This document shows positions 2,723 to 38,940 of a DNA stretch of 38,940 bases, piece by piece; position 1 is the stretch's first letter, and every line of letters starts with the position of its first letter. The notes below the pieces were generated by a model. The model did not search any database. It had not been told where the DNA came from and saw only the letters and a program-made list of their open reading frames with translations. The stretch covers positions 1-38,940 of the forward strand of contig CAJXMR010000026.1 of assembly GCA_913056305.1 (NCBI GenBank), given 5' to 3'. Source of the stretch: an uncultured Ralstonia sp. Its GTDB lineage: Bacteria > Pseudomonadota > Gammaproteobacteria > Burkholderiales > Burkholderiaceae. The position numbers and the translations under genes are program-made.

Positions 2723-2751
2723 GCGGCGCAGCCAGCAGTAGCGAGGCGGCC

Positions 2752-3243: not shown

Positions 3244-3248
3244 AGCGG

Positions 3249-8668: not shown

Positions 8669-8691
8669 ACAACTGAACACACTTAAAGACA

Positions 8692-8711
8692 GGCCAGACA
8701 CGTATCTGGCC
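8692..8711 (+). promoter_or_regulatory. Stem-loop abutting the wspR ribosome-binding site
   Basis: GGCCAGA-CACGTA-TCTGGCC is a perfect 7-bp stem with a 6-nt loop. Its 3' arm ends one base before GGAG (8712-8715), the Shine-Dalgarno of wspR (ATG at 8722). There is no U-tract, so it is not a standard terminator. It could control ribosome access or mRNA processing, so that cyclase output is set separately from the upstream signalling proteins. Confidence 0.55.
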
Positions 8712-8721
8712 GGAGAACAAC

Positions 8722-9821: not shown

Positions 9822-9836
9822 GCGCTGCTTCAGCGC
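9822..9836. terminator. Short hairpin between convergent wspR and desaturase genes
   Basis: GCGCTG-CTT-CAGCGC forms a 6-bp stem just after the wspR stop, overlapping the 3' end of the convergent desaturase gene. It lacks a U-tract, so it is at best a weak or Rho-assisted bidirectional terminator. Confidence 0.3.
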
Positions 9837-10771: not shown

Positions 10772-10785
10772 CGCGGGGGCCTCCG

Positions 10786-12912: not shown

Positions 12913-12925
12913 GTCGGCGCTCCCC

Positions 12926-14131
<1,206 letters not shown>

Positions 14132-14154
14132 GCGATTCCTCGGTGTCGTGTCCG

Positions 14155-15291: not shown

Positions 15292-15379
15292 GACGGCTCC
15301 GGTTGGAGGGGGCGGATGGTTGCCGTATTTCAGCAAGACGGCGACAATTTCGGTTGATCTGAATCGCCACGTTCTTGAT

Positions 15380-24906: not shown

Positions 24907-25686
24907 ATGAACGCAGCAAACAATCAACATCAACCGCTGGAAGGCAAGATCGCCCTCGTGACGGGCGCGAGCTCTGGCATCGGCCGCGCGGCGGCCATCG
25001 AACTGGCGCAGCGCGGCGCGAAGGTGGTGGTCGCGGCGCGGCGCAAGGCAGAACTCGATGCCCTGGTCGCGGCCATCCAGGCCGACGGCGGAGATGCGGC
25101 TGCCATTGAAGTCGACGTCACGCGTGAAGACGACATCCGCAAGATGGTCGACTTCGCCGTCGCCACCTACGGGCGCCTGGACATCGCCTTCAACAACGCG
25201 GGCACCGAAGGCGTGTTCGCGCCGCTCACGCAGCAGACCGATGCGACCTACGACAAGGTGTTCGACCCCAACGTGCGCGGCGTCTTCAACTCGATGAAAT
25301 ATGAGGCCGAGGTGATGCTCAAGCAGGGCGCGGGCAGCATCATCAACAACGCCTCGATGGGCGGCGTGATCGGCTTCGAGAACGCGGCGCTGTACATCGC
25401 CACCAAGCATGCGGTGATCGGCATGACCAAGACGGCCTCGATCGAATGGTTCCGCCGCGGTGTGCGCGTCAACGCGCTGGCGCCGGGGCTGATCGAGACG
25501 CCGTTCCACCATCGCGGTATCTGGCCGTCGGATGAGGCCCGGCACGACTTTGCCGCCAACACGCCGGCTGGCCGCTTCGGCAGCGCGCAAGAGATGGCGA
25601 CCATCGTGGCCTTCCTCGCGTCCAACGACGCGAGCTACGTGTCGGGCCACGCGCTGGTGGCCGATGGCGGCTATTCGGTTGCTTGA
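24907..25686 (+). CDS. SDR-family oxidoreductase (LysR-linked)
   Basis: Classical short-chain dehydrogenase of 259 residues. The cofactor site is ALVTGASSGIGRAAAIELAQ, followed by AARRK (a basic residue after the second strand suggests NADP). NNAG is in AFNNAGTEG, catalytic Ser in NNASMGGVIG, and Tyr-Lys in LYIATKHAVIG. The C-terminal SYVSGHALVADGGYSVA is the family ending. Its frame is intact and it is divergent from the LysR gene. The preferred substrate is unknown. Confidence 0.92.
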   Translation: MNAANNQHQPLEGKIALVTGASSGIGRAAAIELAQRGAKVVVAARRKAELDALVAAIQADGGDAAAIEVDVTREDDIRKMVDFAVATYGRLDIAFNNAGTEGVFAPLTQQTDATYDKVFDPNVRGVFNSMKYEAEVMLKQGAGSIINNASMGGVIGFENAALYIATKHAVIGMTKTASIEWFRRGVRVNALAPGLIETPFHHRGIWPSDEARHDFAANTPAGRFGSAQEMATIVAFLASNDASYVSGHALVADGGYSVA

Positions 25687-25695
25687 TGAGCCGAG

Positions 25696-25722
25696 GCGGC
25701 GGGGTGGTCAGTGCTCCGCCGC
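25696..25722. terminator. GC-rich hairpin between convergent SDR and ROK genes
   Basis: GCGGCGG (25696-25702) pairs perfectly with CCGCCGC (25716-25722) around a 13-nt loop, in the 47-base gap between two convergent genes. It has no U-tract. It is probably a bidirectional stop for both transcripts. Confidence 0.4.
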
Positions 25723-25733
25723 TGGCCAAGACC

Positions 25734-26906
25734 TCACGCAAAGAACCGCGTCTTCAATGGCACCAGCGCGGCGCCGATCACGGTGGCGTTGCCGCTCGCC
25801 TCGCCCAGCACGAGCTTCGGCCGAGGCGGCGCGACACCGTAGCGATGCTTCTCCCAGAAGCGGGCACGCTCGATCAGCATCTTCCCGAGTTCGGGCGGCA
25901 GCTGGCCGCCAAAGACGATCGCTTGCGGATCGACCAGGCCGGCCACCGAGTTGATGACCCGGTCCAACGCCGGCAGGGTGCGTGCGATCCAGCTCTCTAC
26001 GCCGGGCCAGGCCGGATCGAAACGGCAGCGCAGGTCCTCGACCGACTCGACCTCGACGCCGTTCGCGCGCAACTCCCGGATCAGGTATTGCAGCGCCGGC
26101 CGTCGCTCGGCTTCCTCGTCAGTGAAGATCGTCATTTCGCCCGCGTTGCCGTGCGAGCCGAAATAGGGTTTGCCATCAATGACGGCGCCGCCACCGAACC
26201 CGTAGTTGAAGGACAGGTAGAAGAAATTGCGCGCCCACAGGCCGGCACCCAGCAGGCTTTCGCCGATGGCCGCCGTGGTCGCATTGTTCTCGATCCACAC
26301 CGGCAGCTTGAAGCAGCCTTCGAGGATGGGCGCCAGATCGATCAGCGACCAGTCCTGCAACGGCTCGGGCGCGTTGACCTGGCGGCGATCCCCGACGAAG
26401 AAGCCGGTCATCGCGAAACCGATCCCGATCACGCGCTCGCGCCGGACTTTGTTGCGCTTGAGCAGTTGACCGACCTCATCGTTCAATCGGGCGAGCGATG
26501 CGTCCCGCTGCGTCGGCGGCGTCGGGATCAGGATCTCTTCCACGATGTTGCAGCCCAGGTCTGCGAGACACAGTGCCATGGAATCGGTATTGACTGAGAT
26601 GCCGATGGTATAGGCCGCTTCGCGCACGAGCTCGATCCGCGGGCTGGGCTGCCCCCGGCCGTTCTTGACCGGCTCGCCCGCGCGCAGCAGGCCGCGCTCG
26701 ATCAGCTGTTCGACAAGACGGTGGATCGACTGCTGCGCAAGGTCCGTCTCCGAGGCAATCGCCGCGCGGGAAATCGCCCGGTGCCGGCGGACGATGTCGA
26801 GGATCATGCGCTCGCTGGCACTGGGAAAAAACGCATCGCTGGTGCGCGGCGTATTCTGTGCGGCCGCATCGGGCGCTGGCTCGAGACCTCTGGATTTGCT
26901 GGTCAT
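25734..26906 (-). CDS. ROK-family protein, probable transcriptional regulator
   Basis: 390 residues from the ATG at 26906; a TTG-initiated form from 27050 would add 48 residues, and neither start has a clear ribosome-binding site. An N-terminal winged helix (RMILDIVRRHRAISRAAIAS, then QQSIHRLVEQLIERGLL) precedes a sugar-kinase-like ROK domain with ENNATTAAIGE, FNYGFGGGAVIDG and GSHGNAGEMT. The Cys-rich zinc motif of NagC/Mlc-type repressors is absent, so it may bind its ligand differently. As last gene of the phosphodiester/lipid locus, 185 bases after the phosphatase gene, it probably senses an internalised product such as a sugar or inositol and controls the locus. Function is inferred. Confidence 0.82.
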   Translation of the reverse strand: MTSKSRGLEPAPDAAAQNTPRTSDAFFPSASERMILDIVRRHRAISRAAIASETDLAQQSIHRLVEQLIERGLLRAGEPVKNGRGQPSPRIELVREAAYTIGISVNTDSMALCLADLGCNIVEEILIPTPPTQRDASLARLNDEVGQLLKRNKVRRERVIGIGFAMTGFFVGDRRQVNAPEPLQDWSLIDLAPILEGCFKLPVWIENNATTAAIGESLLGAGLWARNFFYLSFNYGFGGGAVIDGKPYFGSHGNAGEMTIFTDEEAERRPALQYLIRELRANGVEVESVEDLRCRFDPAWPGVESWIARTLPALDRVINSVAGLVDPQAIVFGGQLPPELGKMLIERARFWEKHRYGVAPPRPKLVLGEASGNATVIGAALVPLKTRFFA

Positions 26907-27091
26907 GTAGGGGGGGCGGGGGATCGCGGCTACCGTAACGGCATGGGGCGCGTGTATTGCACCTGCTGCAGGCGGGCGTTCGTCGCGGTGTTCACATCGC
27001 GTATTCGGAGCGCCGGCCAGCGTAAGTTGATCAGGCAAAAATTCTAGCAAACCAATGTGTCGCGCTCGCGTGCCGGCGGGGCCACGTACGG

Positions 27092-27871
27092 TTACGTGTC
27101 ATTTCGCGCGGATGCCTGCCACAACGGTGTGACCACATCGACCAAGGCCCGGGTGCCGACCATCACGTCCATGCCGGCAGGTTTCGCGACGCCATCGACA
27201 TGCGTCTCCAGCCCGGCCTCGCGGCACAGGACAATGCTAGCCGCGATATCCCAGAGGCTGGTGTGGCGCTCCAGATAGCCGTCGACATAGCCCAGCGCGG
27301 CGAAGCCCAGGCCGATCGTTGCACAGCGGTAGCTTGCCACGCTCCAGTCGTGTTGCCGCAGCGTCTGGCTGAGTTGGGCGATTTCGGCGGCATCCCAATG
27401 GGCGTTCTCACCCATCGCTACAGCGCGCACTTCCGGAAACGGCACCTCGCGCCGCATCGGCAGGCCGTTGCAGACCAGCCCGAGCCCCAAGGCAGCACCG
27501 ATGCTCATGCCCAGGATGGGGTAGTGGATCGCGCCGACCACCGGTTCGCCATCGACCACCAGCCCGAGCGAAATGCCCCACAGCGGCGAGCCGCGCAGGA
27601 AATTGGCAGTGCCATCGATCGGGTCCACCAGCCAGCAGGTAGGGGCCAGTTCGCCGCCCAGCTCCTCACCCAGGACGGACTCACCGGGAAACGCCGAACC
27701 AAGACGCTCGCGGATCACGCGCTCGACCGCCAGATCCGCCTCGCTGACGAAATCGCGCGGGCCTTTGGCATGCATCGCCAACTGCGTGCGCTGCTGGAAC
27801 AAGCGCCGGGCGATCTCGCCCGCGGCTTCAACGATGGCGGTGGCGTGCCGGAGACGATCTTCTCGTTGCAT
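27092..27871 (-). CDS. Inositol-monophosphatase-family phosphatase
   Basis: Mg-dependent, Li-sensitive-type phosphatase fold, 259 residues; substrates in the family include inositol phosphates, histidinol phosphate, PAP and fructose bisphosphate. Metal-site motifs are complete: GEELGG at 68-73, WLVDPIDGTANF at 80-91 and SLWDIAAS at 205-212 (WD of the C-terminal motif). The start at 27871 gives a normal family N-terminus; the longer frame is a shadow over the permease gene. It follows the second permease by 59 bases, so it likely acts on the compound imported by the transporter, removing phosphate in the cytoplasm. Inositol phosphate or glycerol phosphate would fit. Confidence 0.9.
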   Translation of the reverse strand: MQREDRLRHATAIVEAAGEIARRLFQQRTQLAMHAKGPRDFVSEADLAVERVIRERLGSAFPGESVLGEELGGELAPTCWLVDPIDGTANFLRGSPLWGISLGLVVDGEPVVGAIHYPILGMSIGAALGLGLVCNGLPMRREVPFPEVRAVAMGENAHWDAAEIAQLSQTLRQHDWSVASYRCATIGLGFAALGYVDGYLERHTSLWDIAASIVLCREAGLETHVDGVAKPAGMDVMVGTRALVDVVTPLWQASARNDT

Positions 27872-27930
27872 GACGGTGTGTGAACGTTGAACGGTGAAAT
27901 GTAAGCAGGGTGCGCCGAGCCATGGCGGAT

Positions 27931-28848
27931 TCATTTGCCGGCGCCGATCACGCCTTTGACAAACCAGCGCTGCAGCAGCGCGATCACCAGCACGGGCGGG
28001 ACCAGCGCAACCAGCGCCGCTGCCATGACCAGGTTCCATTCCGGCAACTGGCTCGCCTCGGTCGGGAAGAAGCTGGCCACGCCCACGGCGATCGTGCGCA
28101 TGCTGCCCTGGTTCGTGACCACGAGCGGCCACATGTATTCCTTCCACGTGGTGATGAAGGCGATGGTGCCGAGCGCGGCCAGGTTGGTCTTCGACAGGGG
28201 CAGCAGGATGTCGATGAAGAAACGCATCGGTCCGGCGCCGTCGATGCGTGCCGCTTCCGACAATTCCGCCGGCACGGTCTGGTAGAACTGCCGGAACAGA
28301 AAGGTGCCGGTGGCCGAAGCCACCAGCGGCAGCGACAGGCCGGCATAGGTGTCGAGCAGGTTCAGCGACGGCATGATCCGGATGCCGGCCAGCGACGCAA
28401 TGAGCGTGTCCAGGCCGGTCGTACGCAGCACCGCCTTCAGCGGCTCGTATAGGTCGGAGGCCACGGCATAGGTGGGGACGATGCGGACCTCGAGCGGCAG
28501 GAGCAGCGTGATGAAGACGCTCCAGAAGATCAGGTGCCGCAGCGGCGAGCGGAAGTAGACGACGGCGTAGGCGGTGACCGACGACAGCGTGAGCTTGCCT
28601 ACCACCACCACGCTCGACACGACCAGGCTGTTGAACAGCATGCGGCCGATGTTCACGCGCCGCGCGACTTCCCGGATGTTGTCCAGCAGGTGCGCACCGG
28701 GCAGCAGCGCGACACCATTGTCGAGCAGTTGCTGGTTCGGCACCGAGGCCGAACAGAACGCCACATACAGCGGCCCCAACGCGAACAGCACCCCCAGCAC
28801 CAGGATCGCGTAGCAGCACAGATGGAAGGCGCGATGACGTTCGACCAT
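27931..28848 (-). CDS. ABC transporter permease, UgpE/MalG type
   Basis: Inner-membrane permease subunit of a CUT1-class importer, 305 residues with about six hydrophobic helices. The EAA loop that contacts the ATPase is ELSEAARIDGAGPMRFFIDILLP. The family-typical second-permease N-terminus (LVLGVLFALGPLYVAF) is present. The start at 28848 lies 2 bases after the first permease's stop, so the two are translationally coupled. It would form the channel with the 28851-29735 product. No ATPase gene lies in the cluster. Confidence 0.9.
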   Translation of the reverse strand: MVERHRAFHLCCYAILVLGVLFALGPLYVAFCSASVPNQQLLDNGVALLPGAHLLDNIREVARRVNIGRMLFNSLVVSSVVVVGKLTLSSVTAYAVVYFRSPLRHLIFWSVFITLLLPLEVRIVPTYAVASDLYEPLKAVLRTTGLDTLIASLAGIRIMPSLNLLDTYAGLSLPLVASATGTFLFRQFYQTVPAELSEAARIDGAGPMRFFIDILLPLSKTNLAALGTIAFITTWKEYMWPLVVTNQGSMRTIAVGVASFFPTEASQLPEWNLVMAAALVALVPPVLVIALLQRWFVKGVIGAGK

Positions 28849-28850
28849 GG

Positions 28851-29735
28851 TCAGTGCTGGCCTTGACCGCGCTCGAATGCGCGGAACTGCACGAAGGTGA
28901 GCATCACCACGCCGATCATCAGGATGACCGACAGCGTTGATGAGCCGGACAGATCGAGCCCGACAAAGCCATCCGAGAAAATCTTGTAGGACAGGATCTC
29001 GGTCGCCTCGCCCGGTCCGCCGCGCGTGAGCGTATCGATGATCCCGAAGCTGTTGGTGAAGCTCTCCAGCATGTTGATGACGAACACGAAGAGTACGAAC
29101 GGCGCGAGCAACGGCAGCTGGATATCCACGAAGCGGCGCACCGGGCCCGCGCCGTCGATTGCGGCGGCGGCCAGATAGTCGTCCGGCACCGACTGCAGCG
29201 CGGCGGTGAAGATCACGAAATTGAATGGGATCTGTGTCCACGCAAAGGCCAGGGTGACCATCAGCAGGGCATCACTGCCGTTGACATGTGGCGCCCACAG
29301 CCCTGGCCAGATCTGGTTGAACCAGCCCAGCGGCCCCGCGACGGGACTCATGAGGTAGCGCAGGATGACGCCGAGTACCGCGCCGGCCACTGCATACGGC
29401 CAGATCAACAGATGGCGCAAGACCTTGCTGCCGCGCAGGCTGAGGCTGGCGCATGCGGCCAGCACCAGCGCCGCGACCACGGCCAGCCCGACACCGCCGG
29501 CAATGAACAGCGCCGTGGCACGCAGCGAGGCATGGAAGCCAGGGTCCGTCAGCACGCGCCAGTAGTTCTGCAACCCGACAAAGACCGAGCCATTGCCGAA
29601 GGGCCGCTCCAGATGCAACGACCACCAGATCGCCTTGCACGCCGGCCAGTAGAAGAACAGCGCGGCAAGCGCCAGCTGTGGCGCAGCCAGCGCAAGCGGC
29701 AGCCATCGGTGCGGGAAGGGAGCAGTCGGCTTCAT
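28851..29735 (-). CDS. ABC transporter permease, UgpA/MalF type
   Basis: First inner-membrane permease subunit of the importer, 294 residues and about six helices. Seen are the N-terminal LALAALFFYWPACKAIWWSL, YAVAGAVLGVILRYLMSPVAGPLGW, the EAA loop DDYLAAAAIDGAGPVRRFVDIQLP, and TRGGPGEATEILSYKIF, a pattern shared with UgpA. AGGAG sits before the ATG. It lies 8 bases after the binding-protein gene. The UgpA likeness suggests glycerol-3-phosphate, glycerophosphodiester or a related phosphate ester as substrate. Confidence 0.9.
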   Translation of the reverse strand: MKPTAPFPHRWLPLALAAPQLALAALFFYWPACKAIWWSLHLERPFGNGSVFVGLQNYWRVLTDPGFHASLRATALFIAGGVGLAVVAALVLAACASLSLRGSKVLRHLLIWPYAVAGAVLGVILRYLMSPVAGPLGWFNQIWPGLWAPHVNGSDALLMVTLAFAWTQIPFNFVIFTAALQSVPDDYLAAAAIDGAGPVRRFVDIQLPLLAPFVLFVFVINMLESFTNSFGIIDTLTRGGPGEATEILSYKIFSDGFVGLDLSGSSTLSVILMIGVVMLTFVQFRAFERGQGQH

Positions 29736-29743
29736 GTGATCTC

Positions 29744-31063
29744 CTAGGGCGGCGCTACGCCGGCATAGGTGTCCTTGAATCGTTGCAGCAACTGATCGCC
29801 GCGCGCCTTGGCGCGGTCAAGCGCCTGATCCATGGTCTGCTTGCCTGCGAAGGCCTTCTGGACCTCAGCCTGCCAGGCAAGACGGAACTGCGGCATGAAG
29901 CCAAGCCGGGCGCCCTCGTTGTCCTCACCGGGGGACACGCTGAGCGACGCCAGGCCCGTTGCGATCGGCGCCAGTGCGGCAGCATCCTCGCCGCCCAACA
30001 TCATGAGAGCACGGGCAGCGCGATGTGTGAGGGGCAGGTAACCCGTCCGGAGGGAGAAAGCGATCTGCTGCTCAGGCTGCCGAAGATAGTCGAAGAAGGC
30101 GGCAACGCCCCGGTAGACCGCCGCGCTGTGTCCCTTCATGACCCACAGCGAAGCGCCGCCGACGACGGTGTTGTGGCGCTGCGTGCCCGCATAGGTCGGG
30201 ACCATGCCGACTGCGGCATCGACGCGCTTGCTGGCTCGGATGCCGCTCCACGCACTGGTCGATTCGACCGACAGCGCGCACTCCCCGGTGGCGAATGCGA
30301 GCGTCTGGTTGCCGGCCCGTGTGTCCGCGGCGTCGATGAGCAGGCCGCGTGCGCGCCAGCGCATGACGTCATTCATCAAGCGGCGATGCACGCCGGTGTT
30401 GAACACGTAGCGGGCGTCGAGCCCCTGGCGGCCGTTGTGCTGCGTGGCAATCGGCGCGCCTTGCGAGGCGCTGGTCTGCTCCAGCATCTTCCACGGATCG
30501 TAGTCCGTGACCGCCGGGCACACGCTGCCGGCGGCCTTGAGTTTTTCTGCCGCCGCTTCGAATGCCTCCCAGGTTTGCGGCGCCTGGGCGATACCCGCCA
30601 CGGCCAGCCATGCCTTGTTGGCGTACAGGACCTGCGTCGAGACGTTGAAGGGCAGGGAGTAGGGGTGGCCGGCGGCGTCGGCGTAGTAGCGCCGTACCAC
30701 GGCGAGGTCGTCGGACCAGCCGAGGGTGTCTCCCGCCTCGTGCATCAGGCGGTCGACCGGATAGATGGCGCCGCTGAGCATCATGTCGAGCGTGCCGACA
30801 TCGTAGATCTCGACCACAGCCGGTTGCCGGCCGGCCCGGTAAGCCGCGACGACCTTCTGCATCGTCTGCTCATACGTGCCCTGCGACACACAGTGCACGC
30901 GATGCTGATGTTGCGCAGCGTTGAAGCCGGCGCACAGCGATTCGATTGCCTCGGCAATCGGGCCGCTGTGGCCATACCAGAAGTCGAACTCCGCTGCCGC
31001 CGCTATCGGCGAGGCCACCCAAAGGGCGGTGGCAAGGGTGGCGGCGAACAGCGCAGGCTTCAT
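29744..31063 (-). CDS. ABC transporter periplasmic binding protein, UgpB-like
   Basis: Extracytoplasmic solute-binding protein of 439 residues. The start at 31063 gives a clean signal peptide (about 24 residues, cleavage near AAAA-EF); the longer frame is a shadow over the phospholipase gene. The mature part begins EFDFWYGHSGPIAEAIESL and contains GTYEQTMQKVVAAYRAGRQP and VVEIYDVGTLDMMLSGAIYP, closely resembling UgpB from memory (NYEQSL... and VYEVGT...). LPFNVSTQVLYANKAW also fits. It probably presents glycerol-phosphate or a phosphodiester to the permeases. It follows the phospholipase gene by 11 bases. Confidence 0.9.
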   Translation of the reverse strand: MKPALFAATLATALWVASPIAAAAEFDFWYGHSGPIAEAIESLCAGFNAAQHQHRVHCVSQGTYEQTMQKVVAAYRAGRQPAVVEIYDVGTLDMMLSGAIYPVDRLMHEAGDTLGWSDDLAVVRRYYADAAGHPYSLPFNVSTQVLYANKAWLAVAGIAQAPQTWEAFEAAAEKLKAAGSVCPAVTDYDPWKMLEQTSASQGAPIATQHNGRQGLDARYVFNTGVHRRLMNDVMRWRARGLLIDAADTRAGNQTLAFATGECALSVESTSAWSGIRASKRVDAAVGMVPTYAGTQRHNTVVGGASLWVMKGHSAAVYRGVAAFFDYLRQPEQQIAFSLRTGYLPLTHRAARALMMLGGEDAAALAPIATGLASLSVSPGEDNEGARLGFMPQFRLAWQAEVQKAFAGKQTMDQALDRAKARGDQLLQRFKDTYAGVAPP

Positions 31064-31074
31064 TCCATCAGCGT

Positions 31075-33213
31075 TCAGGGTGCGCGCGGCCGGTCTGGCG
31101 AGGCAGGCGGGCTGCTGTCTCGGCTCAGTGCCGGATCGGTCTTGCCTGGCTTGCCGGTTTCGACGTGCCCGGCGTAGCGCCGTGCAAAGTCGGCGGGATT
31201 GTCGGCTGCGACAGTCAGGTCGTACCAAGCATCGCTGGATGATAGCGCCCAGTTGATCTCGATGCGTCCCCCGGCCGGCAGGTGATGGCGACGTGCCTGG
31301 GCGCCGTAGGCGTTGTCGGTCACAGTCAGCGTGCGGGCGACGGTGTCGTGGTTGGACAGCTCCAGCCGCAGGTCGCCGACGGCCGGAACGTAGTTGGTCC
31401 TCACCTCGAGCACCGCGCCTGCGGGTGCTGCGGCATGAGCCCGGCCGGAGACGCGGCGCAGGAAGCCGTTGGGCCCCAGGATTTCCAGGTCGTAGCTGCC
31501 ATCGGTTGTCAGTGGCCAAACGCCTGCCAACTGGGTGTTGGCGTCGACGGTATAGCGTTTGGGGGCCGCATCGCTGGCGTGGTCGAACACATGGAAGACC
31601 GCGCCGACGCTGCCGCTGTTGACGAACTGCAGCTGGACCGACTGGCTCGCCGTATCGATCTTGGCGTGCGTGTGCAACACGTATGGCAATGCGCGCGTGC
31701 GCCGTTGCACAGGCTCCTGACGGTGCAGCGTCTGCGCTTGCGGCGGGTGCGGCGCGGGTAGGCCCGGCTGCATGGCGTGCGACGCGAGGAATGCGCGCGC
31801 ATCCGGCAGCGCAGGGATCTGCGCGTCCGGCGTGGCGAAGTCGAACGCCAAGGTCAGGTCGCCGCACACGGCCCGGCGCCACGCGCTGATGTTCGGCTCA
31901 TGCACGCCAAAGCGCGCCTCCAGGAAGCGGATGACCGACGTGTGGTCGAACACCTGCGAGCACACCGCACCGCCTTTGGACCACGGCGAGATGGCCAGCA
32001 GCGGCACGCGTGCGCCCAGGCCGAACGGCAAGCCATCCTGCGCATGGATTTCCGCGGCCACGTCGACATTCGATGCGCCTTGTTCGGGCGTGGCCGCCGG
32101 CATGGGCGGCAGCACGTGGTCGAAGAAGCCGTCGTTCTCGTCGTACATCACCAGCAGGACGGTCTTGCTCCAGGTGTCCGGGTTGGCCGTCAGCGCGTCG
32201 AGCACGAACGCGATAAATGACGCGCCGTCGGCCGGCGTCCACTGGGGGTGTTCGGAGCAGTTGTGCGGCGGCATCACCCAGGAGACCTGCGGGAGCCTGC
32301 CGGCCTTGGCATCGGCGGCGAACACGCTGGGTGGCCGGTGCGTCATCGCGTTGCGGTACAGGGGCGAATCTTCCGGTGCGTTGGCGAACTGCTGGAAGAA
32401 GCGCAGCACGTTGAAGCAACTGACCGACGCATTCGGGTCTTCCGGATGCGGATCGTTGCGCCTGCGGATGCCGTCCTGCACGTCGATGGGGAAGGGGCCG
32501 TCCTGGTCGATCCCCTGGTAGACCCGCCACGACACCCCGGCAGCTTCCAGCCGTTCCGGATAGGTGGTGTAGGAGACCGGTGGGCCGTTGCGCGGCTGGA
32601 AATCGCGGCCTTCGGCCGGCTGGTCCTTCATCGGGCCACCGTGGGTTCCAAACGGATCGATGGTGCCGGCCATCAGGTGCGAGCGGTTCGGGTTGGTGGC
32701 GCCGGGCAGCGAGCAGAAATAGGCGTCGCACACCGTAAACGCATCGGCCAGCGCGAAGTGGTAGGGGATGTCCTGGCGCGTGTAGTGCCCCATCGTCAGC
32801 ACGCCCTTGGCCGGAATCCAGTTGTCGTACAGGCCGCCGGCCCACGCGGCGTGCCCATCGACCCAGCCGTGCGGCAACGAGTGGACGCGCTGGGAGGCCG
32901 TGCTGTGGCTCGGCATGTGGAACGGCAGCACGGTCCCGCCCTGGCCGTCGGGCTGCTCCCAGATGGTGCGCTTGCCGCGTAGCGGCGCGGTGTGCCGGTC
33001 ATTGAATCCGCGCACGCCTCCCAGCGTGCCGAAGTAGTGATCGAACGAACGATTCTCCTGCATCAAGATGACAACGTGCTGCACGTCGTGGATCGTGCCG
33101 GTGGGGGAGGCGGCCGGCAGGGCCAGCGCGCGCCGGATCGAGAGCGGCAGGGCGCCGAGCCCGGCTGCCATGCCAACGCTGGCGCCCGCTTTGAGAAGGT
33201 CGCGTCGGTTCAT
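31075..33213 (-). CDS. Tat-exported phospholipase C (PlcN-like phosphoesterase)
   Basis: Cleaves phospholipids to diacylglycerol and a phosphorylated head group, outside the cytoplasm. It opens with a Tat signal (MNRRDLLKAG then a hydrophobic stretch to about residue 33). The catalytic phosphoesterase domain (about 44-470) has ENRSFDHYFG at 53-62, LPGATNPNRSHLMAG with the presumed Thr173 nucleophile, DENDGFFDHV at 358-367, SPWSKGG, and FDHTSVIRFLEARFG. Two copies of the bacterial PLC C-terminal domain fill about 500-690. The 712 residues match the non-haemolytic PlcN class in length. Head-group specificity is not readable. AGGAG precedes the ATG, and the start overlaps the upstream 2H phosphoesterase stop (ATGA). 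Confidence 0.92.
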   Translation of the reverse strand: MNRRDLLKAGASVGMAAGLGALPLSIRRALALPAASPTGTIHDVQHVVILMQENRSFDHYFGTLGGVRGFNDRHTAPLRGKRTIWEQPDGQGGTVLPFHMPSHSTASQRVHSLPHGWVDGHAAWAGGLYDNWIPAKGVLTMGHYTRQDIPYHFALADAFTVCDAYFCSLPGATNPNRSHLMAGTIDPFGTHGGPMKDQPAEGRDFQPRNGPPVSYTTYPERLEAAGVSWRVYQGIDQDGPFPIDVQDGIRRRNDPHPEDPNASVSCFNVLRFFQQFANAPEDSPLYRNAMTHRPPSVFAADAKAGRLPQVSWVMPPHNCSEHPQWTPADGASFIAFVLDALTANPDTWSKTVLLVMYDENDGFFDHVLPPMPAATPEQGASNVDVAAEIHAQDGLPFGLGARVPLLAISPWSKGGAVCSQVFDHTSVIRFLEARFGVHEPNISAWRRAVCGDLTLAFDFATPDAQIPALPDARAFLASHAMQPGLPAPHPPQAQTLHRQEPVQRRTRALPYVLHTHAKIDTASQSVQLQFVNSGSVGAVFHVFDHASDAAPKRYTVDANTQLAGVWPLTTDGSYDLEILGPNGFLRRVSGRAHAAAPAGAVLEVRTNYVPAVGDLRLELSNHDTVARTLTVTDNAYGAQARRHHLPAGGRIEINWALSSSDAWYDLTVAADNPADFARRYAGHVETGKPGKTDPALSRDSSPPASPDRPRAP

Positions 33214-33956
33214 TGTGTTTCTCCTGCGATGTGTGCGGCTTGCGGCGGCGGCGTCATGGATTCGCTCCCGAGGTACAGGCGCGTTTCGAAGGCGTGCATG
33301 TCGTCAAAGACGCAGAACTCGGGCGGCCCGAATTCAACGACCGGAACCTGGCGCCGGATCCATTCGAAGCATGCGGCCTGCTGCTTGAGATACGCGTCGG
33401 TCGCAGCCGGCGTCATTGCCTTGATGGGGTAGGCAAGCGTGATGTGGAACACGTAGTCGTTGTGGATCGGGTGCCGGATCGACAGGCAGTCGGACAACCG
33501 GTCACGCAGGGTGCGCAGCTTGCGGTTCTCCTCGGCGTCGATCGGGGTGAGCGTCATGACGCCAGCGCTGTGCTGGGCGCTGCCATCGGCGATCACCATG
33601 CGCAACGGCAACTCGCAGGCAGGATCGAAGCGCGCCAGCTTCTGCTCGAAACGGCGCGTGCACTGATCGACCGGCGCATCGAGCTGGACATCGGCGGGCC
33701 AGGCAAGCGGCGCGCGAATGTGATCGGTGACGCCCTCGAACACCGTCATGTGATAGCTCTCGGGTGGCAGGAAGGTCAGGCAGTCGGCCGCTTTACCGGC
33801 GTTCAGCTGATCGCGCGCGGCAATCAGTGCGCTCCACAAAACACCGGGGCGCGGCACATGGCAGAGGATCGTGTTGCCCGGGTAGTGGCGGACGCTGCCA
33901 TCGCGGTTGAACTTGACGCCGACGTGATGAAGGTCGAACGGAAGGTTGTTGGACAT
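33210..33956 (-). CDS. DUF1868-type 2H phosphoesterase
   Basis: 248 residues of the 2H (2'-5' RNA ligase-like) superfamily. Two HxT catalytic motifs are seen: YHMTVFEG (His69, Thr71) and FHITLAYP (His171, Thr173). Members hydrolyse or ligate 2',3'-cyclic or similar cyclic phosphodiesters; the DUF1868 branch has no function I know of. There is no signal peptide, so it is probably cytoplasmic. It lies 29 bases after tonB and overlaps the phospholipase gene by 4 bases, so it is clearly part of the locus. It may open a cyclic phosphate made from the imported compound. No clear ribosome-binding site is seen. Confidence 0.8.
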   Translation of the reverse strand: MSNNLPFDLHHVGVKFNRDGSVRHYPGNTILCHVPRPGVLWSALIAARDQLNAGKAADCLTFLPPESYHMTVFEGVTDHIRAPLAWPADVQLDAPVDQCTRRFEQKLARFDPACELPLRMVIADGSAQHSAGVMTLTPIDAEENRKLRTLRDRLSDCLSIRHPIHNDYVFHITLAYPIKAMTPAATDAYLKQQAACFEWIRRQVPVVEFGPPEFCVFDDMHAFETRLYLGSESMTPPPQAAHIAGETQ

Positions 33957-33985
33957 GCGGGTGTTGCGCGGTCGTGAGTTGCTCG

Positions 33986-34687
33986 TTAGTTGCTGAGCCG
34001 GAAACGCAGCTCGATCTCCCCGACCATGCCGCCTTCGTTGGGGGAGAACTTCCAGCGCATCAGGGCGCGGATGGCTTCCTGGTCGAAGAGCTTGGGGGGC
34101 TGTGCGCTGACGATCTTCACTGCCGAGACGCTGCCGTCGGCCTCGATCGTCGCGCGCGCGACCACCACGCCCTCGGTGTTGCTGGCCAGGGCGCGCGGCG
34201 GATAGTCGGGTTCGACGCGCACGAGCGGCACGAGACCGCGACGTACGCCGCTCGGCTTTTCGGGAGCCTTGTCCCGCTGCACTGGACTAGGTGACGGTGC
34301 GGGCGCTGCTGCCGGTGCCTCGACCGGTTTGGCATCCGTCGTCGGTGTCGGCACAGGGGCGGCACTCGGCGCATTCGCCACGGGTTTCGGCGCGGGCGCC
34401 GGCTTGGCCTTGGGAGGGGTAGGTTTCGGTTTCGGTGCCGATTGCATCGGTGTCGGCGGCGCCGGGTCGGGCTCGCCCGGTACATCTGCAATGGTCACCA
34501 GCCGCGCGATCTTCACCGGTGCCGGTGCAGGCGGCACGGGCGGGTCAGCGCGCCGGCCAAGCGTCACGGCAATCAGCCCCGCTTCGAGCACCAGCGCAAT
34601 CGCCAGCGCCGCAGGCAGCCGCAGCCCGGAGGGCAGGTCGGGGGCCGGCTGCGGCAGTCGCGCGGTTGCCGGCAAGGACGAACTCAT
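33986..34687 (-). CDS. tonB: TonB-family energy transducer
   Basis: Carries proton-motive energy from ExbBD to the outer-membrane receptor. The 233 residues show an N-terminal membrane anchor (about 25-45, LRLPAALAIALVLEAGLIAV), a Pro/Lys/Ala-rich periplasmic linker (about 50-145, PKPKPTPPKAKPAPAPKP), and the C-terminal TonB domain (LVRVEPDYPPRALASNTEGV, FDQEAIRALMRWKFSP). It lies 9 bases after exbD. A dedicated TonB for one receptor suggests the system works apart from the general TonB. Confidence 0.92.
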   Translation of the reverse strand: MSSSLPATARLPQPAPDLPSGLRLPAALAIALVLEAGLIAVTLGRRADPPVPPAPAPVKIARLVTIADVPGEPDPAPPTPMQSAPKPKPTPPKAKPAPAPKPVANAPSAAPVPTPTTDAKPVEAPAAAPAPSPSPVQRDKAPEKPSGVRRGLVPLVRVEPDYPPRALASNTEGVVVARATIEADGSVSAVKIVSAQPPKLFDQEAIRALMRWKFSPNEGGMVGEIELRFRLSN

Positions 34688-34696
34688 GGCATCACC

Positions 34697-35095
34697 TCAG
34701 GGCTTGGCGGCAATGCCGAGGTCTTCGACGCCGGCTGCGCGTGCAACGTCCATCGCGCGCAGCAGCTCCTGCAGCGGCACGTCCTTGTCACCGGCAATCA
34801 GGACTTCGAGCTTGGCCGACTGTGCGCGAACCTTGAGCTGCTGCGTCAGGGCGTCCGCCGCGATCGGCTGGCCTTCGAAGAACAGGCCGCCTTCCTTCTT
34901 CACGGCGATGGTCAGCGAGGTCTTGGGCAACGGCGCCGCGGTCGACGCTTGCGGCACGTTGATCTTCAGGCCGCTGGCATCGATCATCTTCAGCATCGTC
35001 ACCATGAAGAAGATCAACAGGAACATCATGATGTCGATCATCGGGACGATTTCGATGCGCGGCTCGCGCACGTCCAGGTAGCGGGTCCGGCTCAT
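34697..35095 (-). CDS. exbD: ExbD-type biopolymer transport protein
   Basis: Inner-membrane subunit of the Ton motor, 132 residues: a short cytoplasmic N-terminus, one helix (about 15-36, IVPMIDIMMFLLIFFMVTML) with Asp in MIDIMMF as the proton-bearing residue, then a periplasmic domain (AVKKEGGLFFEGQPI, EVLIAGDKDVPLQELLRAMD). It is 2 bases after exbB and 9 bases before tonB. Confidence 0.95.
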   Translation of the reverse strand: MSRTRYLDVREPRIEIVPMIDIMMFLLIFFMVTMLKMIDASGLKINVPQASTAAPLPKTSLTIAVKKEGGLFFEGQPIAADALTQQLKVRAQSAKLEVLIAGDKDVPLQELLRAMDVARAAGVEDLGIAAKP

Positions 35096-35097
35096 GG

Positions 35098-35811
35098 TCA
35101 GGCTCCCGACAGGCCGGCCGTTGCGGCTCGCTTGAACGGCATGCGCTCGGCCTGCGGCTGCAGCGTGGCGACGCGTGAGGTCGTGGGGTCGGTCTCAAGC
35201 AAATGCAGCCGCTTGATGCAGGCGAGCTTGACGAGGTCGAGCTGCAGGATCGCCAGCCGGACGCGCTTGCCGAAGTAGCTGTTGACCGCCACGCCGACGA
35301 TGGCCACGGCCAGGCCGAAGCCGGTGGCGATCAGCGCGTGGCCGATGCCGCCGGTCACGGCGCCCGCATTGGGGCCGCTGGCGCCGAGCACATTGAACGA
35401 CTCGGTGATGCCGATGATGGTGCCCAGCAGGCCGATCAGCGGGCCGAGCGTCACGGCCGCGTCGAGCAGCCACAAGGCACGGTCGAGCTTGGGCAAGGTG
35501 CGCACGATGGCTTCGTCGATGTAGCGGTCCATCGCTTCCGGATCGAGGTGCCGCGCTTCGACGGCCGCCTGCAGGGTGCCGCCGAACACGGTGGCCTGGT
35601 GGCGCTGTGCAATCGCCCGCAGGGCCTCTTCCTGCCGATGGTCAGTGGCGGAGAGTTCACGGTCCAGCGCCGCGCCGGACGGCACGATGCGCGCGAAGAA
35701 GACGGCACGTTCGATGGCGACCACCAGCACCACGAGCAGGATGAGCGCGAGCAGCGGAATGATGCCCATCGACTGCAGGCTCAGGTCGATGAATTGTTGA
35801 TAGGCGTTCAT
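35098..35811 (-). CDS. exbB: ExbB-type (MotA/TolQ/ExbB) proton channel protein
   Basis: Inner-membrane partner of ExbD, 237 residues from the ATG at 35811 (GGAAG lies upstream; the longer frame begins with TTG). There is an N-terminal helix at about 14-38 and a pair of helices around 117-185, with the conserved TLGPLIGLLGTIIGITESF and GIGHALIATGFGLAVAIVGV. It lies 44 bases after the receptor gene, with a small hairpin in between. Confidence 0.93.
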   Translation of the reverse strand: MNAYQQFIDLSLQSMGIIPLLALILLVVLVVAIERAVFFARIVPSGAALDRELSATDHRQEEALRAIAQRHQATVFGGTLQAAVEARHLDPEAMDRYIDEAIVRTLPKLDRALWLLDAAVTLGPLIGLLGTIIGITESFNVLGASGPNAGAVTGGIGHALIATGFGLAVAIVGVAVNSYFGKRVRLAILQLDLVKLACIKRLHLLETDPTTSRVATLQPQAERMPFKRAATAGLSGA

Positions 35812-35838
35812 AGGATTTCTTCCAAAAGTGAATAGCAA

Positions 35839-35852
35839 CAGCCGGGGGGCTG
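35839..35852 (-). other. Small hairpin between receptor gene and exbB
   Basis: Read on the minus strand, CAGCC-CCCC-GGCTG forms a 5-bp stem followed by a T-rich run. It resembles a weak terminator or processing site and could lower expression of exbB and downstream genes relative to the receptor. Confidence 0.3.
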
Positions 35853-35855
35853 GCG

Positions 35856-38675
35856 TCAGAACAGTTTCTTGGGCGTGTAGGTCAGCCCAAGCCAGTAGGT
35901 GCGGTTGAGCGAGAACGTGTCCTTCAGTAGGTTCCGGTTGGGCCCGGTGACGCTGACCAGCGGCGAGTTGGTCAGGTTGGAGATCGAGAAGAAGGCACGC
36001 CAGCCATCACCGATGTCGTAGTGCGCCTGCAGGTCGAACTGCTTGCGCGCCTTCCAGTAGACGTCCTGGCTGGCGAGCGCGGAATCGACCAGGCGCAGGC
36101 TGTCGCCGGCCCAGTTGTAGGCCAGGCTCACGCCAAACCGCTGGTAGTCGTAGAACACCGTCAGGTTGCGGATCTGGTCGGGTTGATTGACCAGCCGATT
36201 GATGGTGCGCGTGGCGCCGGACGTGGTGAGCGCGTTCAGGCGGCCGGCCAGCAAGGTGAGGTTGCTGCTAAAGCCGACGCCCTTCAGGTATGGGGTCAGC
36301 CAGCCGAGTGTGCCCTGCACGAAGTTGAACTCCATGCCGTTGAGCTGGGAGCTGGACGCGTTGAGCGGCTGCGAGATGGCGGCGGTGCGGTTTGCGCCAT
36401 CAAAGAAGATCTGCCCCTGGCTTTGCAGCGTGTAGATCTCGTTCTTGATGCGCTTGTGGAACCCGGCCACGGAGGCGAGCCCTGCATTGGGCAGATACCA
36501 CTCCGCGGACAGATCGAAGTTGTCCGATTGGCGCGGCTTGATGTCGGGGTTGCCTTGCGAGATCGTCACCGAGCCATCGGTGTTTTCCGAGATGGTGGTG
36601 TTTGGCGAGTACGCGTCGTAGTTGGGCCGGCCGATGGTCTGGCTGGCGGCGGCCTTCAGCTTGACGGCGGAACTGGCATCGAACACGAACGACGCTGCCG
36701 GCAGCGTGAAGTTGTAGTTGGAATTCTTGGTGACGGACTGCCAGGTTGTGCTGCCGTTGACGACGTTGCGCACGTTGCCGGTGGTCGACAGGTCGGTGTT
36801 GTCCTGGCGCAAGCCGAAGGTGGCGCTGAACCGATCGGTCCGGTAGGCGGCCATCGCATAGCCGGCGGCGGTCTGCTCGCTGTGGGTGTAGTTGCTCTGC
36901 AGGCTGCTGGTCAGGTTGCCGCTGTTGGCCGAGATGATGTTGGCGTTCGCGGCAAATTGCGCCCACGCGCGGGCCGGGTCGACGATGATGAATGGCAGGC
37001 CGTTGCTGTACGGCATGATCGTGCCCGACAGATAACCGGCGCCCGCCAGCGTCATGCCGGCGGCGTTGGGGTTGTACTGGTTGAAGTTGTCGGTGTAGCT
37101 ATGGCCCAGGCGCCGATAGTCGATACCCACTGCGTATCCAAGCCCGCGCGCATCGGCATCCATGTTCTGGCGGAAATCGAGCTTCACATCGCCGACCCGA
37201 TCGTCGATGGCGATGGTCTCGTTGCGCCAGTAGTACGCCTGCCAGTTGTTCAGGTTGTCGAAATTGCTTGGATTGACGGAGACGCTGGGCTCGGAGCCGG
37301 AGGTGTCGTAGTTCATCGCCAGGCCGGGCGTGCCGCTCAGCGTGGGGGCCGTGCCGGCAGCGTTGTAGCGGAAGCGGGCGAAGATGTATTTCGCCATCTG
37401 GCGCGGCTCTCGATGGCGCGCTTCCGATAGCGACGAGCGGAAGGACAGGACCTGGTCATCGCTGAGCTTCCAGTCCAGGCCGCCCTGGGCCGACTGCACC
37501 GTGCGGTCGAGCTTCGAGATCATGTTGCCCGCTTCAGCCTCGCCCAGCGCGAAGTGACCGGACGTCGGGGTCTGGTTGGAGACCGGATTGGTGCCCGTGC
37601 TGCGGCTGTCGTCGATGAAGGTCTCGTTGCGTACCTGGCGGGTGGTCTCGTTGTTGTAGCCGAGGCTGATGAAGCCATAGAGGTCGGGGCTGAACCGTGC
37701 CTCCACCTTGGCGTCCACGCCCTTGCGCTCGAAGTTCTTCAGGAACTGCCAGTACTTGAACTGCTGCGGCACCGGAATGCCGTTGCCCGTGTTCGGGCCG
37801 CCGGTGGCGGGGTTGTTGGCGTTGGCGCCGTTGGCGTTGTAGTAGTTGTAGAAGATGTTGTCGGTCGCCATGTGACCGATCGACGTGGTGTTCTCGTTCT
37901 CGTAGTTGGCCGCAATGACAACGCCCAGGGCCCCCGTGGGTCCGAAGGTGCTGCTGAACACCATGTCGGTCTTGCGCGCCAGCCCTTCATCGGCCGACAG
38001 GACCTTGCCGCTGTCGCGGGCATGCCCGAGCCCGCCCGTGATGCTCAGATACGGCTTGCCGCCGTTGTCGAACGCGCTGCGCGTGACGATGTTGATGGAG
38101 CCGCCCACGGCGTTGGGGTCCTGGTCGGGCAGCCAGGTCTTGTACACCTGGACCTGCTTGACCAGCGACGACGGCAGCATGTTGGTGCGCGCGCTGCGGC
38201 TGGTCAGGTCGGTCGACGCCATCGGCGCGCCGTCGATCGTGACGTTGTTGTAGCTGCCGTCGAGCCCGCGGATGGCGATGAACTGTGCCTCGTCGCGGCC
38301 GTTGACGTTGTCCGGGTTGAAGCTGACCGAAACACCGGCAACACGCCTGACCGTATCCGTGACGGTGTCGTCGGGCAGGTTCTTGATCTGGTCCTGGGTC
38401 AGCACGTCCATCACGCGCTCTTCGGTCTGCTTGGTGGCCACGGCCGCGCTGGTCTGCGCGCGTTGCCGTGTCACCTCGACGCTGCCGACGTGCTGGACCG
38501 CGCCGTCGTTCTTACCGGTCTCATCGCCGGTCTTCGCTGCCGGTGCCTTCCCCTGTTGATCCTGGACCTGCGTGTCGTCACTGGCTGCCTGGGCCAGGAT
38601 CGGCAACGCCGCGCTGATTGCGAGAGCCATCACGGAAAGGCGCAGACGGTGCCCTCCCCCCTGTCGATAAAGCAT
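35856..38675 (-). CDS. TonB-dependent outer-membrane receptor
   Basis: First gene of the locus, 939 residues. Signal peptide (hydrophobic about 15-30, cleavage near AQA-AS), a linker of about 50, then a TonB-box-like VGSVEVTRQR. The plug domain runs at about 85-210 (MDVLTQDQIKNLPDDTVTDT, VRRVAGVSV, FIAIRGLDGSYNNVTIDG, DPNAVGGSINIVTRSAF). The remainder is a 22-strand-type barrel ending in Phe (YTPKKLF). Plug motifs resemble the Xanthomonas/Caulobacter receptor class (TIGR01782 type) used for carbohydrates and other non-iron substrates rather than siderophores. The ligand is unknown; its place in the locus suggests a phosphodiester or lipid-derived compound. The ATG has GGGGA upstream. Confidence 0.93.
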   Translation of the reverse strand: MLYRQGGGHRLRLSVMALAISAALPILAQAASDDTQVQDQQGKAPAAKTGDETGKNDGAVQHVGSVEVTRQRAQTSAAVATKQTEERVMDVLTQDQIKNLPDDTVTDTVRRVAGVSVSFNPDNVNGRDEAQFIAIRGLDGSYNNVTIDGAPMASTDLTSRSARTNMLPSSLVKQVQVYKTWLPDQDPNAVGGSINIVTRSAFDNGGKPYLSITGGLGHARDSGKVLSADEGLARKTDMVFSSTFGPTGALGVVIAANYENENTTSIGHMATDNIFYNYYNANGANANNPATGGPNTGNGIPVPQQFKYWQFLKNFERKGVDAKVEARFSPDLYGFISLGYNNETTRQVRNETFIDDSRSTGTNPVSNQTPTSGHFALGEAEAGNMISKLDRTVQSAQGGLDWKLSDDQVLSFRSSLSEARHREPRQMAKYIFARFRYNAAGTAPTLSGTPGLAMNYDTSGSEPSVSVNPSNFDNLNNWQAYYWRNETIAIDDRVGDVKLDFRQNMDADARGLGYAVGIDYRRLGHSYTDNFNQYNPNAAGMTLAGAGYLSGTIMPYSNGLPFIIVDPARAWAQFAANANIISANSGNLTSSLQSNYTHSEQTAAGYAMAAYRTDRFSATFGLRQDNTDLSTTGNVRNVVNGSTTWQSVTKNSNYNFTLPAASFVFDASSAVKLKAAASQTIGRPNYDAYSPNTTISENTDGSVTISQGNPDIKPRQSDNFDLSAEWYLPNAGLASVAGFHKRIKNEIYTLQSQGQIFFDGANRTAAISQPLNASSSQLNGMEFNFVQGTLGWLTPYLKGVGFSSNLTLLAGRLNALTTSGATRTINRLVNQPDQIRNLTVFYDYQRFGVSLAYNWAGDSLRLVDSALASQDVYWKARKQFDLQAHYDIGDGWRAFFSISNLTNSPLVSVTGPNRNLLKDTFSLNRTYWLGLTYTPKKLF

Positions 38676-38777
38676 GTTTTCCCCGAAAGCGATTGTTTAC
38701 CAAGTGACGCCGGTTCCTCTCGTCGTACGCGCTTGGTGGCACGTTGCTTGGGATCCCGTCGGTCCGATTTCTGCTCG

Positions 38778-38794
38778 TGCGATGTCGTATCGCA
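38778..38794. promoter_or_regulatory. Inverted repeat upstream of receptor gene, candidate operator
   Basis: TGCGAT-GTCGT-ATCGCA is a perfect 6-5-6 dyad, 103 bases upstream of the receptor start. It could be the binding site of the locus's ROK regulator or another repressor. The gap 38676-38888 has an AT-rich block at about 38815-38845 where the promoter may lie, but I see no good -35/-10 pair. Confidence 0.4.
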
Positions 38795-38888
38795 TCCATG
38801 CCAAAGCGGACGGCCAGATATTAATACCCACTATGTGTAATATTCGTGACGGAGCCACAGGAGATCGCAGAATTGTCAAAGTCCCCTA

Positions 38889-38940
38889 GGGCGTGTCGTC
38901 AAATCAGCCAGATGACAGAAGCTGCGAGATGAATTGCGGC
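38889..38940 (-). mobile_element. Terminus of an IS5-family (IS427-like) insertion sequence
   Basis: From GGGCGTGTCGTCAAAT onward the sequence resembles the ends of IS427-group elements as I remember them, and the transposase stop lies only about 10 bases inside. The boundary CTAG (38886-38889) matches the YTAR target preferred by the group. The element continues beyond the window, and its exact edge is uncertain by a base or two. Confidence 0.6.
38899..38940 (-). CDS. IS5-family transposase, last 13 codons (partial)
   Basis: Read on the minus strand to the stop at 38899-38901, the end is AAIHLAASVIWLI, a C-terminus I associate with IS427-group IS5-family transposases. The remainder lies outside the window, so activity cannot be judged. 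Confidence 0.55.
   Translation of the reverse strand, partial: AAIHLAASVIWLI

Follow-up and report, generated by a model that had tools for sequence, protein, structure and literature searches.

An eleven-gene operon of an uncultured Ralstonia sp., located at positions 25734-38675 of the 38,940-nucleotide contig C26 (CAJXMR010000026.1), joins a TonB-dependent receptor and its own Ton motor to a DUF1868 2H phosphoesterase, a phospholipase C (PLC), a UgpBAE-type importer, an IMPase-family phosphatase and a ROK regulator. The entire contig was analyzed and is referred to as the window; the genome comprises 5.47 Mb in 411 contigs and is 88% complete. The locus is a real and conserved system that we read as a putative 2H-based and envelope-spanning variant of phosphodiester-nutrient operons. 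On balance, uptake and breakdown of a sugar- or polyol-phosphodiester in six steps is the probable function of the operon.

The activities, compartments, shared ATPase and ligand that we infer are as follows. A secreted PLC that belongs to a special subfamily would free or expose the compound from lipids or cells (step 1), and the receptor with its own ExbB-ExbD-TonB would move it across the outer membrane (step 2). The UgpB-like protein, having a phosphate site but a pocket unlike that of glycerol-3-phosphate (G3P)-binding UgpB, would pass it to UgpAE and a borrowed UgpC (step 3). In the cytoplasm, the DUF1868 2H enzyme would then hydrolyse the phosphodiester, either outright or through a cyclic phosphate that it opens, and so do the work of the AccF-kind GDPD in agrocinopine-type operons (step 4). 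The IMPase would take off the phosphate (step 5), and the product or an intermediate would free the ROK repressor from an operator ahead of the receptor gene (step 6).

A first-pass annotation of the window had proposed a complete scavenging pathway. Co-inherited uptake and hydrolysis of a phosphodiester-type compound is supported by the conserved gene order, the PLC clade, the retained phosphate ligands and the 5' operator. The word "complete" is not, because the run contains no UgpC and because PLC, IMPase or UgpC is each missing in some members.

Organization of the locus

All eleven genes were found on the minus strand with the positions and spacings previously proposed, and the family given to each was upheld by Pfam and NCBIfam. 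From the 5' end, the features are:

38835-38852, minus strand: palindromic operator candidate, probable ROK site, sequence CCGTCACGAATATTACAC (minus strand)
35856-38675, minus strand: TonB-dependent receptor of TIGR01782 type, 939 aa (Pfam Plug and barrel; TIGR01782 518.4 versus cut-off 310)
35098-35811, minus strand: ExbB-like proton channel (PF01618, 88.4 bits; alternative TTG start 35838)
34697-35095, minus strand: ExbD (PF02472)
33986-34687, minus strand: TonB (PF03544, TIGR01352)
33210-33956, minus strand: DUF1868 (PF08975) 2H phosphoesterase, proposed phosphodiesterase (no signal peptide seen)
31075-33213, minus strand: PLC, putative separate subfamily, with a Tat-like N-terminus (TIGR03396 840.6 versus 580.25 bits)
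29744-31063, minus strand: UgpB-like binding protein with altered pocket (297 bits, under the UgpB model cut-off of 411)
28851-29735, minus strand: UgpA-like permease (NF007852 254.2 bits, under the cut-off of 335)
27931-28848, minus strand: UgpE-like permease (NF008210 310.7 versus cut-off 297; EAARIDGAG stretch retained)
27092-27871, minus strand: IMPase-family phosphatase (PF00459, 155 bits; motifs DPIDGTANF, WDIAA and GEE)
25734-26906, minus strand: predicted ROK repressor (PF00480, 84.4 bits)

The receptor and ExbB genes are 44 bases apart (17 with the TTG start), followed by gaps of 2 (ExbB to ExbD), 9 (ExbD to TonB) and 29 bases (TonB to DUF1868). DUF1868 and PLC overlap by 4 bases, and the remaining gaps are 11 (PLC to UgpB), 8 (UgpB to UgpA), 2 (UgpA to UgpE), 59 (UgpE to IMPase) and 185 bases (IMPase to ROK). 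Because the genes are closely spaced, a single transcript is likely. Within 25500-38940 no sigma-70-like promoter consensus was found (1.6 in shuffles), and there were 18 terminator-like matches versus 7.3 in shuffles, 13 of them on the minus strand. The sole intergenic match on that strand, 35852-35839, separates the receptor and ExbB genes, and the excess may count, if anything, against one transcript. Pfam and NCBIfam annotation of 25734-38675 revealed neither UgpC nor UgpQ, a point absent from the first-pass annotation, and no GDPD-family phosphodiesterase lies within the run, DUF1868 being there instead. The receptor had no sequence relative in the PDB at E 0.001. The G+C content of the locus (0.658) is similar to that of bases 1-25700 (0.677).

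Conservation of the gene order and of the PLC

A DUF1868 alignment run against genome contigs found 190 relatives, and the best 80 of these were combined with eight plasmid loci and the window into a set of 89 DUF1868 loci carrying 49 genus or metagenome-assembled genome labels. Gene order in relatives was read by tblastn with the window proteins and other references. The Caballeronia locus (L014) has the order receptor (in two pieces)-ExbB-ExbD-TonB-2H-PLC-UgpB-UgpA-UgpE-ROK and lacks IMPase and UgpC. In Trinickia (L013/L015) and in Paraburkholderia (L016) the order is receptor-ExbB-ExbD-TonB-2H-UgpB-UgpA-UgpE-UgpC-IMPase-ROK, with no PLC. Same-order relatives with PLC have no UgpC, and those with UgpC have no PLC. 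Three Dyella and one Rhodanobacter carry 2H-UgpBAEC-(IMPase)-ROK, with a receptor immediately ahead in two of the Dyella. The first-pass annotation had staked its proposal on the order being kept in some relative; Caballeronia, Trinickia and Paraburkholderia keep it, Dyella and Rhodanobacter keep part of it, and since it recurs in other genera the grouping exceeds chance. Other arrangements are receptor-PLC-ROK-receptor-2H in Azospirillum and two Nitrospirillum, and ROK divergent from substrate-binding protein (SBP)-permease-permease-UgpC-2H-IMPase on plasmids of Thioclava, Alloyangia and Rhizobium etli. The Caballeronia receptor gene (L014, 5133-8035) was read as two overlapping open reading frames (ORFs), which could reflect a broken gene or a misassembly.

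Within 5 kb of the 89 loci we counted genes for ATPase (40), SBP (35), permease (35), ROK (33), MFS (18), IMPase (15), GDPD (9), LacI (7), PLC (6) and ExbB, ExbD and TonB (6 each). A receptor lay within 5 kb in 26 loci, 18 of these within 500 bases. ATPase genes are common overall (57 within 10 kb), and because many of the loci share ancestry the counts are not independent events. Four MFS partners were tested, two of which were GPH sugar-symporter-like while the other two best matched efflux models; the LacI partner in L024 best fitted the RbsR, PurR and CytR models, all under cut-off. The MFS and LacI partners point to no clear substrate.

Two plasmid loci were excluded from the 89-locus count, neither having an importer of this kind. 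On the E. coli plasmid NZ_CP070073.1 (L010, 8884-9684), a DUF1868 gene whose start looks Tat-like by eye adjoins a microcin B17-type cluster with no importer near, and the Streptomyces plasmid NZ_CP108270.1 (L012, 8833-10386) bears a tandem DUF1868 pair behind a LacI regulator, then MgtC/SapB. In Pseudomonas L029, L030 and L032, DUF1868 genes with Tat-like signals adjoin TonB receptors and LacI; L029 and L030 also have Ton genes, and L030 further has a divergent UgpBAEC.

The window PLC exceeds the cut-off of the equivalog TIGR03396 (phosphocholine-specific PLC), and its Tat signal falls slightly under the Pfam cut-off (21.0 versus 22.7). A tree of 34 rows joined the PLCs from the DUF1868 loci of the window, Caballeronia and three Azospirillaceae in a 100/100 clade that excluded 28 PLCs of the window's family, the second PLC of its own genome included. 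That background held 27 of the 29 newly found loci plus L113, with L176, L177 and matches not attached as loci left out and no Azospirillaceae among it. The PLC of the Phyllobacterium DUF1868 locus (L025) fell elsewhere. The tree argues for the locus PLC as a separate subfamily, whose phosphocholine specificity is only predicted from the TIGR03396 score; the available text of PMC8634861 names the PLC nucleophile and does not name head-group residues. The second phosphocholine-specific PLC of the genome (L113, contig 30, 9353-11437) is over the cut-off and differs in subfamily from the locus PLC.

A candidate operator shared by ROK loci

An 18-base palindrome begins 177 bases upstream of the receptor start and was aligned ahead of the first gene in eight loci, of which six were found first and two (L017, L018) were added through a model of those six. 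When the model was built with the group concerned held out, the operator outranked all other positions in seven of the eight loci, though only narrowly in L018, and came second in the window. With the core pattern GTCANNAATATTACACA and at most two mismatches, the window operator was the only match in its own 5.47 Mb genome. We tried 26 further ROK loci, two of which (L031, L071) gave no interval and were dropped, and the doubtful interval of L040 was scored as a miss. The best site fell in the ROK-divergent space in 14 of the resulting 24 loci, which are related, versus a mean of 1.03 and a maximum of 8 with symmetric column-shuffled models (0 of 300 reached 14). Given this kinship, a binomial p for the 14 is not to be read at face value. 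The operator of L143, an Agrobacterium GDPD-IMPase operon without DUF1868, equals that of the window bar one base, and that of L145, outside the 24-locus set, scores 21.7. Positions 38835-38852 are a probable ROK binding site and the locus is probably locally regulated. The sensing role first assigned to the ROK protein holds in outline, as an operator that accompanies ROK genes sits at the 5' end.

Outside the seven loci searched with their genomes, ten further operator matches with two mismatches occurred in five of the seven genomes, versus one for a reversed control pattern. Six lie inside ORFs of at least 100 aa (two at the ORF end) and four between ORFs, and tblastn with the reference set at these places gave only weak ABC-ATPase matches, at one of them. 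With no system gene adjoining, a wider regulon was set aside and the excess is unexplained. Pho regulation was rejected as well: with a Pho-box matrix, the best site before the receptor scored 10.8, which was equalled in 161 of 2000 shuffles.

Kinship with opine-plasmid operons

Among the best 25 of 733 plasmid records matching the window IMPase, the first 15 were Agrobacterium, with 47-52% identity. Agrobacterium L142 is arranged as ROK / ATPase-permease-permease-SBP-GDPD-IMPase-Na/Pi transporter-sucrose phosphorylase-traR, and L144 is alike with one permease missing from the gene table and two extra sugar genes. Agrobacterium L143 is arranged as ROK / SBP-ATPase-permease-permease-GDPD-IMPase, and Rhizobium lusitanum L145, a record without gene table read by tblastn, matches it throughout. 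A DUF1868 match was obtained in 20 plasmid records, and none of these four is one of them. The window ROK is 51-54% and the window IMPase 48-52% identical to the counterparts in L142 and L143. A Cys-rich zinc motif is usual in ROK proteins; the aligned region of the window ROK has none, with GNAGEM instead, and the ROKs of L142 and L143 are equally degenerate. In a 20-row tree, with a small background that did not include AccG, the window IMPase belonged to a 14-row clade (96/98) with opine-plasmid IMPases, and the other IMPase of its own genome and those of L007-L009, L025 and L040 fell outside.

Between the transporters of L025 and L040 and that of L142, identity is 47-64%, and in both loci DUF1868 occupies the GDPD position with IMPase next; L025 has an additional GDPD-domain gene further downstream. 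Loci L042, L051, L054 and L063 have the order GDPD-IMPase-2H. Judged by gene order, DUF1868 takes or shares the GDPD place in related operons, and because of this place the 2H enzyme is proposed for the phosphodiesterase step itself. It had earlier been cast as an opener of cyclic phosphates; opening is possible, but the operon position argues for the phosphodiesterase step instead of a role limited to opening. A phosphodiesterase for an imported sugar- or polyol-phosphodiester is the best reading of DUF1868.

According to PMC4526662, AccF of the Agrobacterium acc operon cleaves agrocinopine and yields arabinose-2-phosphate, to which the repressor AccR responds as its effector; AccG is a putative phosphatase. 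The locus resembles that operon, from its genes alone, in predicted ABC import of a phosphodiester, phosphodiesterase, phosphatase and product-sensing repressor. According to PMC3907764, C58 AccR is of a different repressor family than ROK. The ROK-regulated opine-plasmid operons may handle agrocinopines, judging by sucrose phosphorylase and traR. With them the locus shares a related ROK (L142, L143), an IMPase of the same clade and the operator (L143 and L145, not L142). Unlike both kinds of operon, it has 2H for GDPD and a UgpBAE-type importer, adds a TonB receptor, a Ton motor and a PLC, and has no sucrose phosphorylase. It is also like TonB-dependent carbohydrate utilisation (CUT) loci, as these are commonly known, in its TIGR01782 receptor, inner-membrane transporter and sugar-type regulator, but has phosphoesterases for glycosidases plus its own Ton motor. 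Together, the evidence points to a variant of the ROK/ABC importer/GDPD/IMPase operons of Agrobacterium opine plasmids.

The first-pass annotation had read the IMPase as a sign of inositol and named phosphatidylinositol as the leading substrate. The family name says little, however, and three annotated Agrobacterium plasmid relatives adjoin GDPD. A pathway for phosphatidylinositol or a glycosyl-inositol-phospholipid, in which PLC would free inositol (cyclic) phosphate, 2H would open the cycle and IMPase would yield myo-inositol, is unlikely in our view, although it survives better than the other alternatives. Of 20 selected genomes with DUF1868, 16 had IolE above the cut-off. Of 147 genomes of the Rhodanobacter family, six had DUF1868 and 19 had IolE, the latter in 4/6 carriers versus 15/141 non-carriers (Fisher p 0.0026, suggestive), an uncorrected association that may reflect genome size and kinship. 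However, the window's own genome, at its 88% completeness, gave no IolE match, as did two of those six carriers, the locus PLC scores as phosphocholine-specific, and the closest plasmid IMPases among the matches listed are the Agrobacterium ones adjoining GDPD.

Altered pocket of the UgpB-like protein

We compared pockets with Phaeobacter UgpB as reference and residue roles from PMC12718374. The window protein retains the phosphate ligands Y64, S142, S268 and Y342 (both Tyr and both Ser), plus Gly and Arg, but has Asp88 for Glu88 and Tyr188 for Trp188; Trp191 is present, and the combination of Glu with the Trp pair is absent. Asp and no Trp188 were found in 18/18 UgpB-like proteins of DUF1868 loci, window included, versus Glu and Trp in 3/3 canonical UgpB (E. 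coli, Phaeobacter and the second UgpB of the window's genome), a signature that sampling from DUF1868 loci does not make specific to them. The phosphate quartet is intact in 14 of the 18. According to the same paper, the M. tuberculosis glycerophosphocholine binder likewise has Asp at the Glu88 position.

A canonical ugpBAECQ operon, 50-60% identical to that of E. coli and with Glu and Trp in its UgpB pocket, lies on contig 150 of the same genome (L111, 6365-11410). Compared with E. coli ugpBAECQ, the locus has relatives of UgpB, UgpA and UgpE in identical order, but no UgpC or UgpQ, and the Glu and first Trp of the pocket are replaced. In their EAA-type stretches, the locus permeases UgpA and UgpE are similar to the canonical pair. 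Because the canonical operon is present, its UgpC could serve both importers, and UgpAE probably borrow this ATPase.

Ordinary phosphate scavenging, with a second Ugp for G3P or glycerophosphocholine beside a PLC and the Ton genes there by chance, would agree with the family names, the canonical score of UgpE and the occurrence of PLCs over the TIGR03396 cut-off in 29 of 60 family genomes. We consider it improbable, since the UgpB pocket departs from the canonical one while the genome retains canonical ugpBAECQ, no convincing Pho box precedes the receptor in the matrix scan, and the operator and conserved gene order speak against it.

The DUF1868 enzyme and its predicted compartment

The window DUF1868 protein has two His-x-Thr/Ser motifs, H69-M-T71 and H171-I-T173, and both His are invariant in each of two 10-row DUF1868 alignments. 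Its fold is 2H, matching LigT, CPDase and Usb1. In fold and two-His motifs it is like 2H phosphoesterases (LigT, CPDase, AKAP18, Usb1; Atu0111, PDB 2fsq), but it belongs to the DUF1868 branch, for which Pfam and the 2fsq title say function unknown. By a crude twin-Arg (RR) rule, and in rows that share kinship, a Tat-like signal was called on DUF1868 in 15/18 loci that have a receptor but lack an ABC importer, 0/28 with an ABC importer alone, 1/8 with both (L030) and 6/35 with neither, L050 of these being false. The window protein has no twin-Arg signal by this rule. The pattern fits DUF1868 cleavage in whichever compartment the compound reaches through its transporter.

A role in scavenging 2',3'-cyclic nucleotides or dinucleotides from RNA, which are the classical substrates of 2H enzymes, is very improbable: the 2H fold, a UgpB relative that binds a dinucleotide (PMC12718374) and the sub-cut-off RbsR, PurR and CytR fits of the L024 LacI would favor it, but the regulators are ROK, two of the four tested MFS partners are GPH sugar-symporter-like, GDPD and PLC are among the partners, and no nucleosidase was seen among annotated neighbours, where no search was aimed at nucleosidases.

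Other features of the window

A chemotaxis-type signalling cluster (MCP, CheR, CheW, CheA-like, CheB and a response regulator with GGDEF) lies at 1046-9816, and a fatty acid desaturase with beta-oxidation genes lies at 9830-15444 on the minus strand.

Discussion

Several observations weigh against import and degradation of a phosphodiester by this operon. PLCs normally release phosphomonoesters, for which a phosphodiesterase would not be needed. For the PLC and phosphodiesterase steps to be compatible, the PLC product would have to be a cyclic phosphate or remain a diester, unless the PLC serves just to open cells. Several operons hold a GDPD together with a 2H enzyme, and the two therefore need not perform the same step. 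Because the IMPases of L007-L009, L025 and L040 fall outside the window's clade, the phosphatase appears to have been recruited more than once. The operator was not found in L142, L042, L025, L051 and others in the 24-locus test, and the locus has no UgpC of its own. Three UgpB-like proteins carry a replacement of S266, and in a fourth two of the phosphate ligands are substituted. By a rule-based count, an ABC importer and a nearby receptor are both missing at 35 of the 89 DUF1868 loci. The locus is rare and patchy, with DUF1868 present in 2 of 299 family genomes and 1 of 16 genus genomes, its own genome counted.

In the literature searched, we found no paper containing the word DUF1868 and none describing this gene combination, the latter judged partly from titles and the starts of abstracts. 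AvrBs2 reportedly makes a sugar phosphodiester that feeds Xanthomonas, which would be a further parallel if right. A domain of AvrBs2 is homologous to agrocinopine synthase, according to PMC3228805.

More tentatively, DUF1868 may be a widespread and as yet unassigned class of nutrient phosphodiesterase whose compartment follows the transporter. The window would then hold an envelope-spanning form in which a PLC subfamily dedicated to the task, a Ton system of its own and a modified Ugp importer jointly mine a head group or phosphodiester, such as a glycosyl-inositol phosphate, from plant or fungal membranes; we regard this wider proposal as possible but doubtful. With the sugar- or polyol-phosphodiester operon proposed here, the DUF1868 family, whose solved structure (2fsq) is titled "unknown function", acquires a function that can be tested, and a single operon would connect the action of a PLC with TonB-dependent uptake and phosphodiester catabolism. 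The proposal also suggests that opine-like phosphodiesters may be a broader nutrient class than the crown-gall story implies.

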